Translations under genes and position numbers: made by a program
Shown: positions 5,774-19,430 of the stretch, one piece after another
Layout of the letters: each line of letters starts with the position of its first letter
Numbering within the stretch: position 1 is the stretch's first letter
Assembly (NCBI RefSeq): GCF_025698545.1
Contig: NC_068569.1
Location: 13,702,001 to 13,766,000 of the forward strand
Direction of reading: 5' to 3'
DNA: 64,000 nt
Source: Gossypium raimondii
Lineage: Eukaryota > Streptophyta > Magnoliopsida > Malvales > Malvaceae
Notes under the pieces: model-generated
Told to the model about the DNA's origin: nothing
Seen by the model: only the letters and a program-made list of their open reading frames with translations
The model's database searches: none

Positions 5774-6823
5774 TTAGCCAAGTTTGGAAATAACATCGTT
5801 TAGAGTAGATGCGGTCTCAGCATAATACTTTTCTGCTTCAGGAGTGCTCTTGATCTTGGCTGCATGGTCAAGCTTGAAGAAACAAAAGAAAATCCATATC
5901 AGAACTGACAAGGTGAACTTGATTGGACAATTCATCATTCAATGGCAAATACGAGGTATCTCAGCGTTTAATCTCCAGTTGTTGACACTATCTATAGGGC
6001 ATTAGTTTGATGTAAACTATATGGCAAAAACGAAAAACAAATTTCAAAACTTACTTCGTCAATGATGTCGAAGAGCTTTTTAGTGAGTTCTTTGAGAGAC
6101 TTCTTTTCATCTTTGGGCTTTGAGGAAATGACGGTGTTTAGGTCATAGCGGAGATACTCAGCCTTAAGACGGAGATCATTCTGCACATAGGGCCAAGCCT
6201 TTTTGTCAATCAAACTCTTGACACCAAGAATGTCTTTGGCTGATTCCTTTGCCCTTTGAGCTGCCTGCTCTGGAGTAAGTGGTTGGAGGTAGAACCTATT
6301 TTTGTATGGCAGATTAAGGTCTCTTGGCTCATCTGAATTCAGAGTTCCAGCTGCCAAAATGCCCCCATTTTTGTCAAATATGTAACAATTCCATTTTCAA
6401 CCTACAATTTCAAGTTTTCATTTTCTTTGTAGACCATGGCCAACAGACACAAATTCAACCAAATTCCCCTCCAAACAGAACTAAATGCAAGGTGGAAAAC
6501 AAAAGATAAATCGACGACTTACGCAATCCACCGGAGGGTGGGGGAGGCGGGCCGACCTTGATGCTTCTTGCATCGGCAAGCACAGCTTGAACAAAGGACC
6601 CTGTGGCCAAACCAGCAGCAGCAAGACCCAGCACGGCTCTGCGTCCTGTTTCAGGCTCGGTAGGTGCCTGTTGGGCTCTGACGGTGAAACCAGGGGTAGC
6701 CACACCCAGTCTTTTGCTGCTACCAATGTTCAAACGGTTTTGGCCACTGACCCGGAGGCTGCCTTCGAGGACAGTCTGCGAGGAGCCACGTAAGCCTGCC
6801 ATGGATGCCATTGCTTGCGCCAT
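5774..6823 (-). CDS. psbQ: Oxygen-evolving enhancer protein 3 (photosystem II extrinsic PsbQ)
   Basis: Three exons, 6823-6523, 6350-6055 and 5872-5774, have GT-AG introns and give 231 residues, the usual size. PsbQ binds the lumenal face of photosystem II and helps retain calcium and chloride at the manganese cluster. Residues 1-50 look like a stromal transit peptide. RR at 61-62 followed by a hydrophobic stretch ending AVLA at 80-83 is a Tat-type thylakoid signal. The mature protein probably starts at D84 ([20 protein letters not shown]) and is about 148 residues. The family signatures [39 protein letters not shown] and [20 protein letters not shown] are all present. The ATG at 6823 gives the conventional start [10 protein letters not shown]; the codons just upstream (GTG AAG) hold no ATG. 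It is divergent from the kinesin gene, 684 bp between start codons. Nothing is broken. Confidence 0.97.
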
Positions 6824-12219: not shown

Positions 12220-12842
12220 AATGAAGTTCTGATTATTATCACATTCTTTTATAACTGTAGTCGTAACTATATTTTGTAATTCAAGTGTTATGCGTTGAAT
12301 TTTTGTATCACTGTAGGGTTTCAGCTTTAGCTACTACTACTAATCATTTGTGTTTTTAGATTTATGCTGCTTCTGATAGGAAAAAAAAACGGTGCATTTT
12401 ATTTGACTGTGGCACAAAAGTAACTCTTTCATTGTTGTATGATATAAAGTTCATCATTTGATGAACACAGAAACAAAGGCATTCTATGTTTTATCAGAGT
12501 TCAGTTTTAGGCTTTTGCTTTCTTACTGTTCTTCAAGTTCTAATTCGATATTTCGTCAAGTATATAAGCAGACAGGGATTTCAGAACACTGGAAGACACC
12601 TTTCTGTAAACATGCTAAAACAAGGTTTTGACAAAACTGAAACGAATTTCATGGCCACAAAAAAAAAAAAAAAACACTTCATATTTTCTCTTCTAATGAA
12701 AAAGTAACAAACTGGGGAGATATTTATTTGTGATGGACATTGTAGTTCTAGACGTCTAGAACCTTCAAGTATCTCCAAAAGAAAAGATAAACGTATTAAT
12801 ATTATATACAGAATAGGAATGGCAGCTAATATGACAAAAGTA
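12220..12842. other. Kinesin 3' region up to the MULE target site
   Basis: No coding capacity. The first few hundred bases should be the kinesin 3' untranslated region. The last ten bases (12833-12842, gacaaaagta) are the left copy of the MULE target-site duplication. A run of A residues at 12660-12674 is the only simple repeat. Confidence 0.5.
12833..12842. repeat. Left target-site duplication of the MULE
   Basis: The ten bases gacaaaagta are repeated exactly at 19421-19430. MULE insertions typically duplicate 9-11 bp. Confidence 0.92.
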
Positions 12843-13000
12843 CGGTTTTTTACACAAATAGTATAGAAAAAAATACTGAAATATGATGTCAGAAATTTTT
12901 TTTACCAAAATAGGTTACTTTTTCATTGGAGCCTATTAGATAGGAGCCAATGAATAAAAAAATAAATTTTTTTGAATAAAATATAATTTTATACTTTTTC
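12843..13000 (+). repeat. Left terminal inverted repeat of the MULE
   Basis: It matches the reverse complement of 19262-19420 closely for about 155 bases, including 'accaaaataggttacttt' and 'ataaaatataattttata'. Similarity fades at about 13000. Confidence 0.88.
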
Positions 13001-13019
13001 GGGTTAGTATATAACCCGT

Positions 13020-13095
13020 ATAATACATAGTATTGACGCCTATCTGGGAGGCGCCAATGGTGGTGCCATACTGAGAGGCGCCAATGCTGTGATTT
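13020..13095. repeat. Left subterminal GGCGCC-type motif cluster of the MULE
   Basis: Within about 75 bases there are three related motifs: 'attgacgcctatctgg', 'gaggcgccaatggtgg' and 'gaggcgccaatgctgt'. The inverted counterparts occur at 19150-19210 near the other end. They are candidate transposase-binding repeats; that role is inference. Confidence 0.7.
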
Positions 13096-13100
13096 TTCCC

Positions 13101-13108
13101 TATAAATA
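13101..13108 (+). promoter_or_regulatory. TATA box of the MULE transposase gene
   Basis: TATAAATA stands alone in a less AT-rich stretch just inside the left end, about 260 bp before the transposase reading frame. A purine-rich leader (13140-13200) with a likely 5' intron donor (ctag|gtatt, near 13202) follows it. Confidence 0.5.
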
Positions 13109-13368
13109 CCCCCAACATAGACATAAATTTTACTACAGAAACGGAAGAAATAAGAAGGAAGGAAGCAGAAGAAAAGAAGGAAGGAAAAGAAGAAAAAACT
13201 AGGTATTTTGGTTTTTCTTTTTAAATAGAATGTAGAGTCTTGTTAGTAATTTTATTATTTGAAAGTTATTTTGTCATGTTATTAATTTTGTTAGCTTCTG
13301 AATGAAAAATTTTGCATTAAATTTTTATGTAATTTGTTTACATTTTGAAATTCTTTTTACGATCTAGT

Positions 13369-16051
13369 ATTGAAAATAGAGAATCGTTTTTTGTATGCGT
13401 TTATTTCGATGAAGAAATTTTGACAACAATTGTGGGATGTATATTTGAATGTCGCAAACAAGTAGCAATGAGATTTGATAGAAATATCTCGTTTGATGAT
13501 ATGAAGGAAAAAATTAGTGAAAAAATTTATAGGCGTTGTGGGAGAAGGATATCAAAAGTTTTCTACAAGTTTCCAGTTTCAACAGATCCAATAAAATTTA
13601 CCGAAATGGAACTTATAGACGATGAAGACGTGGAGACAATGGTCGCTCTTTATTGTGGGACTGAGAGTAACAAAAATGTACCGATTCAGTTATTTGCTGA
13701 GTTAGTCAGTGTGGAGGCAACTGAAGATCCCACTCCATTAGGTGAAGAAGGTGGAGTTAAAGCGCCGTGTATGGTGGTTCCGGTATCGTATGTTGATAGC
13801 CAATCACCTATACATGGGATAAATATTGATCTTAATGCTGCAACCGAGATTGATGTGGTTGGTGATGATGTATACTATAGTAGTGATCCTGTTGATTACG
13901 AAGTGAATAGTGAGAGTGATCCCGACGCAAACGAGGTCCCGGATTATATTGATGACGAAGGCGTGAATGAGGATGTAAACGTTAATGCGTCTTCAGTCGG
14001 AAACCAGATTCGTCGTATTGTGATACACAATAATCCTGGGGCACACATGTCTCGGATAGACCCCGATGCGGCACGGGCAGCTAAGTTTTCGGAGTACCCT
14101 GAAATACCACATGCTTACCGAATGGGTGTATATTCTGATCCAGATGAGTTACGCGTGGGCCAGAGATTTGAAAGTAAGGAAGAATGCATGTTTGCGATTA
14201 AGCGGTATAGCATGAATATATCAGTAGATTACAAAGTCATCGAGTCTAAACCAACATTATATATTGGAGAGTGTTGGAGGTCGGCAGAAGGCTGCAATTG
14301 GCGGATACGAACTGCATTTATACAGAAGTCGCAGATGTGAGAGATACGAAAATTTGTTGGGCCCCACACATGCACTTCAACACGTATGATAGAAGATCAT
14401 CGAAAACTTGACTCCAAAACTATCTGTATATGCATCATGCCAATAGTGAAAGACATGCCGACCATTAAAGTTTGATCGATTCTTTGAAATACAAGCACGA
14501 TTCCAGTATCGAGTATCATACCGGAAGGCATGGATAGTTAAACAGATGGCAATGGAGCAATTGTACGGAGATTTCAATGCATCGTACAATGAATTACAGG
14601 GATGGATAGCCGCCATGAGGGAACACATGCCGGGGACTGTAATTGAGTTGCAGACACGATCTTATTACGGGCCAAATGACCAACTACAATCGAGAAAAAG
14701 AATTTTCCATCGGATGTTCTGGACTTTTGATCAATGTGTGCGCGCATTTCTCCACTGCAAACCATTTGTGCAAGTAAATGGAACCTGGCTATATGGAAAA
14801 TACACACAGATCTTACTTCTTGCGGTTGTTCAAGACGGCAACAGGAACGTACTCCCGATAGCATTTGCCATCGTCGATAAAGAGAACATGGAATCGTGAG
14901 AGTTCTTTCTTACCAACCTGCGGAGGTATGTGATTAGCAATGATAATATTTGCATCATTTCCGATAGAGGGAAATGATTAATTGCAGCCATTAGCCATTC
15001 TGGTGTACCGTAGAGATCTGCATTCTTGATCCGCACATCGCGCTAACTTCCAAAGAGATTATAAGAATGCGATCGGAAGAGACAAGTTGTGAGAATGGGT
15101 AAAGAATTACCTTATCTTTTAAATATAAGTTTTAATGTTTTAGAGTAATACTGTAACTTAAATTTTTTTAATACATATGCAGCGTACGAGCTAGAGCCAC
15201 ACATTTTTCGCCAAAGAATGGCCCGGCTTGAGAGTGACATGGAGGGTCAAACCAACACATCTTTCCGGCAGTGGCTGGGTACCATGGAGCCGTGGCAATG
15301 GGCTCAATGTTTTGACGAGGGCTTTCGTTATGGTCAAATGACTACAAACTTAGTGGAGGGGATCAACGCTGTGTTATTAAAAACACGACATCTTTCAATT
15401 TCATCTGTCATCTCGGTAACCTTCTACAGGTTGGCTACCTTGATACCAAGAATGAGTCAGCAACAAGTGAACCAGATGGAGGCGAGATATGTCTTTGTCG
15501 AAGGCATTAGAGATGCAATGGTTGTAAACCGTCGAATGGCGAGGTCGATGACAGTAGAATTATATTCACGACATAATGAAACGTTTCGAGTTACAGAGAC
15601 CATCGGTTGTCGACCCAGTATACCACCTAGGTCCTACGGAGTTGATCTCCGAAATAGACGGTGCGATTGCAGGAGGTTTCAAACACTTCATTTTCCATGT
15701 GCACACGTCGTGGCAGCTTGTGCTAAAGTTGGATTCAATGTAGAACAATTTATCGATGAAGTGTACACCATCGAACGCACGTTGCGTGTATGAGAAAACG
15801 AGTTCCCCGTGCTTCCTGACCTATCTACTTGGGAGGTACCTCCGACGACGTTCGAGCTAGTCCCAGACATAAGGTTGCGTAGAAACCTGAAAGGTCATCC
15901 GCAATCATCCAGAATCCATAACAAAATGGACATTAGGTAAAAATCTGACTGGAATTTGTGTAGCGTATGCAGATTACCCAGTCACAATCGGAGTAAATGC
16001 TCTCTCCGAAACTACCATGTTGGACAATCATCTCAATCGAGTAGAAATTGA
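13369..16051 (+). pseudogene. MuDR/MURA-type transposase, decayed
   Basis: The first open part (about 13369-14337) includes the segment RFDRNISFDDMKEKI and an acidic linker, followed by a MuDR-type region near ELRVGQRFESKEECMFAIKR. The catalytic region follows (14546-14896, with KYTQILLLAVVQDGNRNVLP). Next are a probable 84-base intron (15099-15182), a SWIM zinc finger (CDCRRFQTLHFPCAH) and a C-terminal zinc knuckle CSVCRLPSHNRSKC (C-x2-C-x4-H-x4-C). In-frame stops occur at 14338, 14897, 14975, 15011 and 15791, frame shifts near 14470-14490 and 15040, and the expected first catalytic Asp reads Asn (QVNGTW). The original start codon seems lost. The family is clear; this copy cannot make transposase. 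Confidence 0.9.
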
Positions 16052-16196
16052 TATGTACTTCATTACATAAATATGGTTTGAATCATAAAATTGTCTACAA
16101 TTTGTTGCAGTTATGGAGACATTTTTAAACCATTATAATTTTATTTAGATAAGAACTATCATTACATAAATATGAGGTTGTTTATTACAAAAACCC

Positions 16197-17909
16197 CTAA
16201 AATTGATGGTTTGATGGTGTGGTTCTAGGGGTATATTTTTGTGGAGCTCGACGCTCACGTTGTGGGCGATTACGGTTATCAACATTCTCCTCAACAGTAT
16301 GTTGGGGTGTGTGAAACATAGATGAATAATCATATGGCTCAAATGCCATCGATGAACTTGATCCGGGATGAGAGGAGTACGATGGCGGATATTGGCTGGA
16401 AGGAGCGGAGTACTGAGGTGGATACGAGGCCACGAAATAGTCATCGCCCCCTAATTCTGGATGATAAGAACTATCCCTAGAATGTAGTTCTGGCTCTGGC
16501 TCTGGTGCATGATACAGATCTCGAAGGTGTTGCGTAATTCGTGTCGTATGCGGAGGGACTACAATCGACCGCCCACCAAATGTAAATGGTTTCCGTCTCA
16601 CAAGACCATCAGATATACTCTAACGAGGGCTGCAAATCCGGAGCACGATCCATCTGAGGTACCCTCTCGAACCGGTTGTTCCATATCGTAATATATTCTT
16701 CGTGCTCTTCTTCCCAATTATCTCCATACCTCCCCTTCTTGCTCATCCCATGGATCTCCCCCAATTGTACTAGCAGTGTCGGGATATACTGTATGCAACC
16801 GAACTGCCGGAGTACTCGATTGCCATGATACCACTCCACTACGTTAAAATTGATAATGGGTGCGCTAATGCACCATAGGTTTGAGTGGACGTGGGCAGAT
16901 GATGGCATAACTGCCATAATTTTCGGAGCAGAATACGACATCTAAATGAACTGCACAGTTAATAACGTTGTTATATTAGCGCGGGTTGAGTGAGATAAAA
17001 TAATAAAATTAAGTTTATATTTGAAAAACTTACCCCCTCTCTAGCATGATTCTCAATCATTAGATGATATATCAGAATCGTCGGTGACCTCTCGATACCC
17101 AGATTAGTACTCCACCTACGAAAACAAATTGTTAGAATAATATAATATAATATAATATAAAAAAGTCAACTAATTATTATAATGAGTAAAAATTCATCAC
17201 ATATTAACGAGTGGAAATACATATGATTGATGACTAATGGATGCCAAGAATGGCATCCGGTAAAGTGCCCACGATCTATGCAGATGAGGCATCCGCCTAT
17301 GTCAACCGCAGAAGGATTTGTTGTCCGACAAAGTTCGCGATACAGAATGGCTAAAACTGCGGACCCCCAACTGTATGAACGAGTGTTATGCGAATTGGAT
17401 AATAAGGGTAAATACATCAAGTGGACCTTACTACCGTTTGCATCCGGCATGAGTACACCCCCTATAAGGTGCATAATGTAAGCTCGAACAGCCTGCATCA
17501 CCACCCATTCATTAGCAGTACTTGGCAAATGCTCAAAATTGGTATGTAGCCATGAAAATCTCAAACTGGTAAATTTCCCCTGACTTGGCGAGCGTCAAAG
17601 TAATTCATTGCAAAGGGTAGCCGGCCTAGAGATTGAACTTACGCCCGTGACCGCATTCCCGTCTATGGGAAGCCCGACCTGTACTGCAACATCCTCTAGA
17701 GTGACGGTACACTCTCCGCACGGCAAATGAAATGTGTGGGTCTCCGGACGCCATCGCTCGACTAAAGCGGAAATCAAGTCGTATCACAGATCAAAAGTCC
17801 GAATCAATGCCGCTGATCCGAACCCGGCTAACTCTAAGTATGGTATTAGGCATTCATTTGGCTGAAACCCTACACTATTAACACGACCCCTCAATGCGCG
17901 GTACGGACC
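16197..17909 (-). pseudogene. Plant mobile domain (MAIN-like / PP7 long-form-like) gene, decayed
   Basis: Reading leftward from an acceptor at 17910, the conceptual product contains LELAGFGSAALIRTFDL, LISALVERWRPETHTFHLPC and VTLEDVAVQVGLPIDGNAV, the hallmarks of the plant mobile domain family. LCRTTNPSAVDIGGCL and INFNVVEWYHGNRVLRQFGC follow, and a Pro/Ser-rich tail ends QRERRAPQKYTP. Breaks include a stop at 17784-17786 that looks like CGA to TGA, another at 17595, a frame shift near 17275, and a stop plus frame shift near 16600-16620. A probable intron lies near 16942-17033. The first exon is not identifiable. The gene is tail to tail with the transposase, only 145 bp away. Such domains occur both in host proteins and in transposons; here it is a transposon passenger. 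Confidence 0.87.
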
Positions 17910-18429
17910 CTGACATTATTAAATTAGCAAAATAGTTAATACAATATAATTTAATTCAACAAATAACATGAATATCAAAAATAAATTTTATTTCCATCTC
18001 ATTAATAGTACTTGATATGTGATTATTATTATTAATTAGAGAACCCATTTCCGCAAATCGCAATAAAAAATGAATTCATTAATTTGTTTCAAAAAATCAA
18101 TAATTATCGTTAAATAAATACAAAATCAAATAAAATTTAATTATATAAAAGTTACATTATATAAAAATTAAATGAGTTAACAACAACTATGTGATTAAAA
18201 TGTCATTATAATTAAACTTTTAAAAAATGATTTTAATTTTTTATAATTAAACTTTTAGTGAAATGATTTTTAATTTTTTATAAACTTTATATGTTAAACT
18301 CACCAAATACTAAACTAAACACAACAACTTATAACTTAATCCTAAATTACTAATAAATTAAATTTTAAATAATTACAAACACAAAATTTATAACATAATC
18401 CCAAATACTAGCAAATTAATTATAAAATA
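17910..18429. other. AT-rich interior of the MULE
   Basis: No coding potential was seen. The first exon of the mobile-domain gene and its promoter should lie here or further right, but no conserved sequence was recognised. Confidence 0.45.
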
Positions 18430-18830
18430 ATTACAATATTCATACAAAAATTACAATATTACAATATATCTCCACATTACAATATTCATACAAAATTACA
18501 ATATTACAATATTCATACAAAAATTGCAATATTCATACAAAATTATAATATTACAATATTCATACAAAACAAATATAATATTCATACAAAATTACAAAAT
18601 TACAATATTCATACAAAAAATTGCAATATTCATACAAAACTATAATATTACAATATTCATACAAAAAATTATAATATTCAAACAAAATTACAATATTCAT
18701 ACAAAATTACTAATCCAAAACTATAAATACAAATTTAATTATAAAATAATTACAATATTCATACAACATTACAATATTCATAAAAAATATAATATTCATA
18801 CAAAAATTTAAAATATTCATACAAAATTCT
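18430..18830. repeat. Degenerate AT-rich array inside the MULE
   Basis: Variants of the roughly 20-base phrase 'aattacaatattcatacaaa' recur about twenty times with small indels. The open frame across it is an artefact of the repeat. Confidence 0.85.
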
Positions 18831-19261
18831 AATCTAAACTATAAACACTAAATATAGATAATTTATAATTAATAATTAATAACAAAAAATCACAATATCT
18901 TCTAAAATATATCCTAAAAAATTCACAAACTATATACTTTTTAAATTATAAACAAAATTATTTATTAAAAAAATACATTACCTTTTTTTCTTTCTTTCTT
19001 CTTCTCCTTCTCTTCTTCTCATTTCTCTCTTTTTTTTTTCTCTACCGTGTGGCATTGGGACCATTTACATTTACTTATAGGCAAAAGAAAAAATGCATGA
19101 AGGGACAACACATGCAACAGCATACAGGGGCTGCAGCGGTGGGCAGAGGGCTACCATTGGCGCCTCTCTATGAGGCTCCTTCATTGGCGCCTGTCAAGTA
19201 GGCGCCACCCGACCTGACCCGACCCGACCGTATTTTGACCCGTATTTTTTAAAAAAATATT
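18831..19261. other. MULE right interior with GGCGCC motif cluster
   Basis: This region includes a CT-rich tract (18980-19040) and, at about 19150-19210, 'cattggcgcctctc' and 'cattggcgcctgtc', inverted copies of the left subterminal motifs. The purine-rich leader near the left end and this CT-rich tract are also roughly mirror-placed. Confidence 0.6.
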
Positions 19262-19420
19262 AAAAAAGTATAAAATTATATTTTATTCAAAAAAATTATT
19301 ATTATTTTATTTATTGACACCTATCTAATAGGCTCCAATGAAAAAGTAACCTATTTTGGTAATTTTTTTTTTGACATCCTATTTCAGTATTTTTTTCTAT
19401 ACTATTTGTGTAAAAAACCC
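19262..19420 (-). repeat. Right terminal inverted repeat of the MULE
   Basis: It is the inverted partner of 12843-13000, with a few substitutions and a short (ATT)n expansion at about 19297-19310. Confidence 0.88.
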
Positions 19421-19430
19421 GACAAAAGTA
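19421..19430. repeat. Right target-site duplication of the MULE
   Basis: Exact second copy of gacaaaagta, directly abutting the element end 'aaaaaaccc'. Confidence 0.92.

Follow-up and report, generated by a model that had tools for sequence, protein, structure and literature searches.

The locus considered here, a Mutator-like element (MULE) spanning positions 12843-19420 of a 64,000-nucleotide stretch of Gossypium raimondii DNA (C5:13702001-13766000 of the 751-Mb assembly, hereafter the window), raises the question of what a gene for a plant mobile domain (PMD) is doing tail to tail with a transposase gene inside a transposon. Our reading, to which we assign a probability of about 0.5, is that the element is a decayed two-gene transposon of the Mutator-like kind, whose PMD protein would act as a VANC-like anti-silencing factor for the element's own repeats. 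The part worth following is the mechanistic link to VANC21 and the lineage-specific arrays.

The first step is to establish that the element is real and where it ends. It is flanked on both sides by the direct repeat GACAAAAGTA, a perfect target site duplication (TSD) of 10 bp, or of 9 bp if the outer G is assigned to the element end, within the 8-11 bp of MULEs; from base composition, ten matching bases at one fixed place have a probability of about 3e-6. Just inside, 12844-12999 aligns with 19263-19419 over about 157 bp (the terminal inverted repeats, or TIRs, of MULEs need not be identical when inserted). A genome search with the element ends scored 40 of 330 candidates, two of which are the window element's own. 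Three relatives (L069, L070 and L071), chosen as copies with complete-looking coordinates and read whole, align with the window element from end to end, across both gene regions (6,669-6,769 columns, 91-92% identity), and the element is therefore not a chance assembly. The window copy (6,582 bp) is about as long as these relatives (6,504-6,697 bp), so that no large deletion is evident. Their TSDs, read by eye, are CCATTATTC (9 bp) in L070 and 8 bp, with one mismatch in 9, in L071; none was found in L069. The element and its parts are laid out as follows.

12833..12842, no strand: left TSD GACAAAAGTA, exact match to 19421-19430, 9 or 10 bp
12843..13000, + strand: left TIR, transposase side, about 157-bp alignment with the right end
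13034..13086, + strand: GGCGCCAATG units spaced 27 bp, next to the transposase promoter; the window copy has 2, and L069, L070 and L071 have 3 each
13100..13108, + strand: TATA-like CTATAAATA, putative transposase promoter, 258-290 bp from the left end in 4/4 full copies
13384..16051, + strand: MURA transposase relic with DBD_Tnp_Mut, partial MULE domain, SWIM, then a CCHC-like knuckle (by eye)
16197..16941, - strand: 3' part of the PMD relic, with PMD profile positions 250-326 (E 2.9e-11), a low-complexity tail and a basic C-terminus
17200..17915, - strand: main PMD exon relic (E 1.3e-16), interrupted in the window copy by stops and a frame change; intact relatives encode 239 aa
17916..18977, - strand: putative first intron of the PMD gene, AT-rich, splice-like borders by eye
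18422..18828, - strand: tandem array in this intron, unit TACAAAATTACAATATTCA (+ strand), 13 copies of AATATTCATAC
19072..19080, - strand: TATA-like CTATAAGTA, putative PMD promoter, 337-345 bp from the right end in 4/4 full copies
19157..19209, - strand: GGCGCCAATG units spaced 27 bp by the PMD promoter, just upstream of the TATA-like box
19263..19420, - strand: right TIR, PMD side, about 157-bp alignment with the left end
19421..19430, no strand: right TSD GACAAAAGTA, matching the left copy at 10/10 positions

Both genes are relics. MURA-type transposase domains are present, with PF03108 (E 1e-9) and SWIM (E 3.5e-7) above their Pfam cut-offs and the MULE domain PF10551 below its own (E 2e-4, profile positions 2-43 of 99 only), and the reading frame is disrupted by in-frame stops and frame changes. 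On the opposite strand, the PMD profile PF10536 exceeds its cut-off in the two pieces listed above, which likewise carry stops and frame changes; upstream of the main exon no PMD match was found. The two stops, at about 16051 and 16197, leave 145 bp between the genes. The first-pass annotation, made from the letters of the window, had described a fully delimited MULE with a perfect 10-bp duplication, inverted ends of about 155 bp, a MuDR-type transposase relic and a convergent PMD relic with 145 bp between the 3' ends, and all of this holds. A PF10536 search of the genome gave 6,035 first-look PMD candidates, 117 of which were scored. The PMD proteins of the A lineage (that of the window element), the B lineage and locus L018 have alike basic, proline-rich C-terminal tails (RNRPQRERR... 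at window 16197-16300, RRNPARNRRRPP... in L014 and RQNPRRARHLPN... in L018; by eye), possibly a nuclear signal.

That annotation had also proposed a fixed architecture rather than a chance capture, and the copies elsewhere in the genome agree with it. When the 150 best transposase matches, scored out of 2,881 first-look candidates, were compared with 324 pooled PMD places, taking the nearest PMD within 8 kb, it lay downstream on the opposite strand in 70, at 1.4-2.0 kb in 55 of these, and downstream on the same strand in none; two had a PMD upstream, over 7 kb off, and 78 had none among the listed PMDs. Randomly shifted transposase places had on average 1.5 PMD neighbours, with a maximum of 6 over 200 trials. 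In a second transposase lineage, whose N-terminal part is about 23% identical, the nearest listed PMD is tail to tail in 20/144 cases and on the same strand in one (at 6.5 kb), while 123 have none among those listed. The loci L030, L015, L036 and the B-lineage places belong to a distant MULE lineage with its own tail-to-tail PMD. Related copies lacking the PMD gene had been named in advance as evidence against a fixed architecture; the four fetched from the 78 apparently PMD-less ones all pass from the 3' part of the transposase straight to the PMD-side leader or end, and are therefore deletion products of two-gene elements. Exact spaced GGCGCCAATG pairs offer another route to elements, with 276 genome-wide against 0 for the reversed control: among the 100 examined, 21 inward-facing pairs mark elements, which by listed matches hold both genes in 4 cases, the PMD only in 3, the transposase only in 2 and neither in 12.

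Purifying selection has left its marks on the PMD exons of related copies. Pairwise ratios of nonsynonymous to synonymous divergence (dN/dS, Nei-Gojobori) for the main exon have a median of 0.53 in the A lineage (27 sequences, 346 pairs) and 0.40 in B (18 sequences, 153 pairs), the choice of sequences by protein similarity biasing them somewhat to low values. The ratio is 0.24 for the 25 A pairs whose dS exceeds 0.4, every one of which includes the single copy L043, and between sublineages it is about 0.15 in 4 pairs with dS of 1.3-1.6, near saturation (4 pairs with L035 had no computable dS). Close pairs thus drift toward neutrality after insertion and distant ones show constraint, as for a working transposon gene and unlike a passenger. 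Tail-to-tail genes, recurrence in two distant transposase lineages and purifying selection together make the PMD gene a working part of the transposon.

What this part does is suggested by structure prediction and by the repeats. The predicted PMD fold points to VANC21, an anti-silencing DNA-binding protein whose crystal structure a passage of a 2022 meeting report mentions as unpublished. A Foldseek search against the PDB returned 14 rows, none at E <= 0.001, and sequence searches of the PDB gave nothing above chance. A model of a genic PMD domain (alignment A1) had a predicted local distance difference test score (pLDDT) of 44 and was not used. Matches to DUF1985 were weak (18/23, best E 9e-5; L048 reaches 18.8 bits against a cut-off of 35.1); a search for DUF1985 in the element's own genome gave no match at E <= 0.001, which is no evidence of absence, as control genomes likewise gave none. 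In the mechanism that we favor, each gene would be started from its own element end, where a conserved TATA-like box and GGCGCCAATG repeats lie. The PMD protein, a putative sequence-specific DNA-binding factor like VANC, would recognize repeats in the element's non-coding DNA, most likely the tandem array of its own first intron, and remove silencing at those repeats in trans. Both genes, along with gene-less derivatives that retain the arrays, could then be expressed or mobilized.

The AT-rich AATATTCATAC array occupies much of the putative first intron, with 13 copies in the window element, 9, 12 and 14 in L069, L070 and L071, and one in the other 57 kb of the window. Its distribution was read on a PMD tree of 54 sequences (59 of 64 matching loci kept, L012, L041, L067, L068 and L069 being dropped, and 5 duplicates removed). 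The array is present in 20/22 loci of clade A1 (exceptions L040 and L054) and in 0/33 others (A2 4, L043, A' 3, L035, L018, B 18, genic 5); of the four loci not placed in the tree, it occurs in L067 and L069 but not in L041 and L068. A tandem-repeat motif in a non-coding region, as in the VANDAL/VANC systems, is thus specific to the A1 lineage. Units of 53-57 bp around a CGCC or CGCGCC palindrome occur in L055, L065, L040 and L068, and about 10 repeats of a 51-bp unit lie upstream of the PMD exon in L035 (C7:4212279). Non-coding repeats of the B lineage differ from those of the window family, for example ATCGCGTCC...GCGAT in L015 and L030. A 31-base word of the array has 53 places in the genome, against 0 for its reversal, forming 44 clusters. 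A PMD, transposase or end from the lists is close to 28 of these; where the genome is covered by the examined pairs, 19 of 21 clusters lie near an element mark, and where a listed PMD lies within 4 kb the cluster is upstream of it in 18/19 cases. Four short copies were read. Three of them (L004, L005 and L007, at C11:21065993, C9:45797664 and C10:7854833) consist of two inverted PMD-side halves without any gene part, each half being end sequence plus intron array, the motif totals being 8, 15 and 16 copies (for L007 the fetched stretch includes only part of the second end); the fourth, L006, has no array and retains part of the transposase. The VANC21 motif YAGTATTAY matches once in the window copy, once in L071 and nowhere in L069 and L070, and the DOWN motif CATGCAGTTT, given for the MORC1 promoter in a passage of PMC9899485, has no match in the four full copies. 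Outside the element, the window holds a 46-bp tandem repeat of 5.6 copies at 760-1013.

The alternative that survives best, although we consider it unlikely, is that the PMD protein is an accessory of transposition, the role supposed for mudrB in maize MuDR, and helps the transposase when it works on the inverted ends or when the element integrates, with no part in silencing. MuDR has two convergent genes, mudrA and mudrB, each started from its own TIR, and the two genes here have the same convergent layout; moreover, both inverted ends have GGCGCCAATG pairs within and next to them, at the place expected for a transposition complex. According to a passage of PMC6446971, mudrB is apparently needed for integration. 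An accessory of this kind accounts less well for a predicted fold that points to VANC21, and for the position of the most repetitive array, which is in the intron of the PMD gene, at least some 600 bp inward of the right end.

Somewhat less probable again is that the repeats have only an ordinary promoter or structural role: the GGCGCCAATG units would be E2F-like cell-cycle sites (consensus WTTSSCSS) that drive both genes, and the intron array would come from slippage in AT-rich DNA. In 4/4 full copies each end does have the units directly upstream of a conserved TATA-like box, the element ends are richer in WTTSSCSS than the interior, and in overlapping 1.2-kb control stretches of the rest of the window a Tandem Repeats Finder score of 150 is reached in 11/93. 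For the intron array, however, slippage fits poorly, as arrays are found at both ends of gene-less copies and in none of the 9 control stretches with GC under 25%.

The first-pass annotation had raised the possibility that the transposon lineage is the source of the host genes or competes with them, and a third, still more doubtful explanation is that the PMD protein mimics MAIN/MAIL and poisons or hijacks their PP7L complex. Here genic PMDs, defined by the absence of a transposase match within 1.5 kb plus long or conserved frames, are informative. One of them, L013 (C7:19288570-19289283), which we take to be a MAIN/MAIL-type gene, is 39% identical to MULE-A PMDs over the aligned exon and 44% over the best search match, an identity that favors mimicry. 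Those of L009-L011, presumably another genic clade, are at about 20-22%; among MULE PMDs, identity is 45-46% between MULE-A and MULE-B and 67-69% between MULE-A and A'. L013 is the only recognized genic PMD near the MULE PMDs, with no second match above 45% identity among the 150 scored of 3,973 candidates. On the direction of transfer between host and MULE the trees conflict: L013 joins the A lineage in the 54-sequence tree (98 ultrafast bootstrap), a 23-sequence alignment without stop-bearing rows prefers all MULE PMDs together, and all three quartet arrangements are acceptable in an approximately unbiased test (p 0.62, 0.18 and 0.37). Mimicry is also in line with MAIN and MAIL1 working with PP7L in silencing, as stated in parts of PMC7156037, yet it gives no reason to expect arrays specific to a lineage, or gene-less copies that keep them. 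Finally, a passenger PMD, captured by chance as a fragment of a host gene in the manner of a Pack-MULE, is very improbable and was rejected, even though passages of PMC13317346 describe gene capture as frequent in MULEs and Ikeda et al. 2017 (PMC5418596) infer in part of their text two captures of genic PMD-C from the host (grasses and Amborella), because no close host parent is recognized among the 150 scored candidates (the best is L013, at 44%), the same arrangement recurs in distant lineages and the PMD exon is under purifying selection.

The anti-silencing reading has consequences beyond this copy. If the MULE PMD is a VANC-like reader of element repeats, a very common plant transposon gene would gain a mechanism, host PMD silencing proteins would gain a structural template, and the anti-silencing idea of Ikeda et al. 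2017 could be tested with one protein and one 48-bp repeat. More tentatively, PMD and the DNA-binding part of VANC may form one fold family; the tail-to-tail PMDs of TIR-bearing MULEs might then be a large set of VANC-type anti-silencing systems, each with its own tandem array, and host MAIN/MAIL relatives of a transposon anti-silencing factor, with opposite sign. Among the top results of a literature search, outside which lay most subscription journals and preprints, we found no publication that connects PMD with the VANC fold or PMD-bearing MULEs with arrays, and the relevant passages of papers covering both VANC and MAIL1 contain no such link. Passages of Ikeda et al. 2017 (PMC5418596) treat the PMDs carried by MULEs and raise anti-silencing as a speculation; those of a 2021 review suggest that PMDs encoded by transposable elements may counter silencing, and both call PMD function undetermined or unknown.

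As to its kind, the window element belongs to a known one. It had been put forward as under-described, in the sense of unknown, which does not hold: Table 1 of Dupeyron et al. 2019 (PMC6446971) lists a MUDR group with Gossypium raimondii elements and a "PMD in antisense for most of them", and two-gene MULEs with an antisense PMD are thus already published. The features given there for this group (group 50), namely a 9-10 bp TSD, TIRs of 30-320 bp, a SWIM transposase and mostly an antisense PMD, are all found here, PMD antisense to the transposase included; the likeness is one of features, and the table row gives no internal repeats or mechanism. With maize MuDR, likened by layout alone, the element shares two convergent genes, the second being here a PMD. 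The VANDAL/VANC systems of Arabidopsis (PMC5735166, PMC10398659; PDB 9lnj), where according to a passage of Dupeyron et al. 2019 half the VANDALs carry "PMD and/or DUF", have missing or degenerate TIRs, whereas the long conserved TIRs of about 157 bp keep the window element from being classed as a VANDAL; moreover, a single accessory gene was found here, a PMD, with DUF1985 matches below cut-off, and the present system is known from its sequence. With the host proteins MAIN, MAIL1 and relatives (PMC5418596, PMC7156037) the element shares the PMD domain, at the 39-44% identity of genic L013, but those host genes are needed for silencing, whereas the MULE copies of PMD are many and element-borne.

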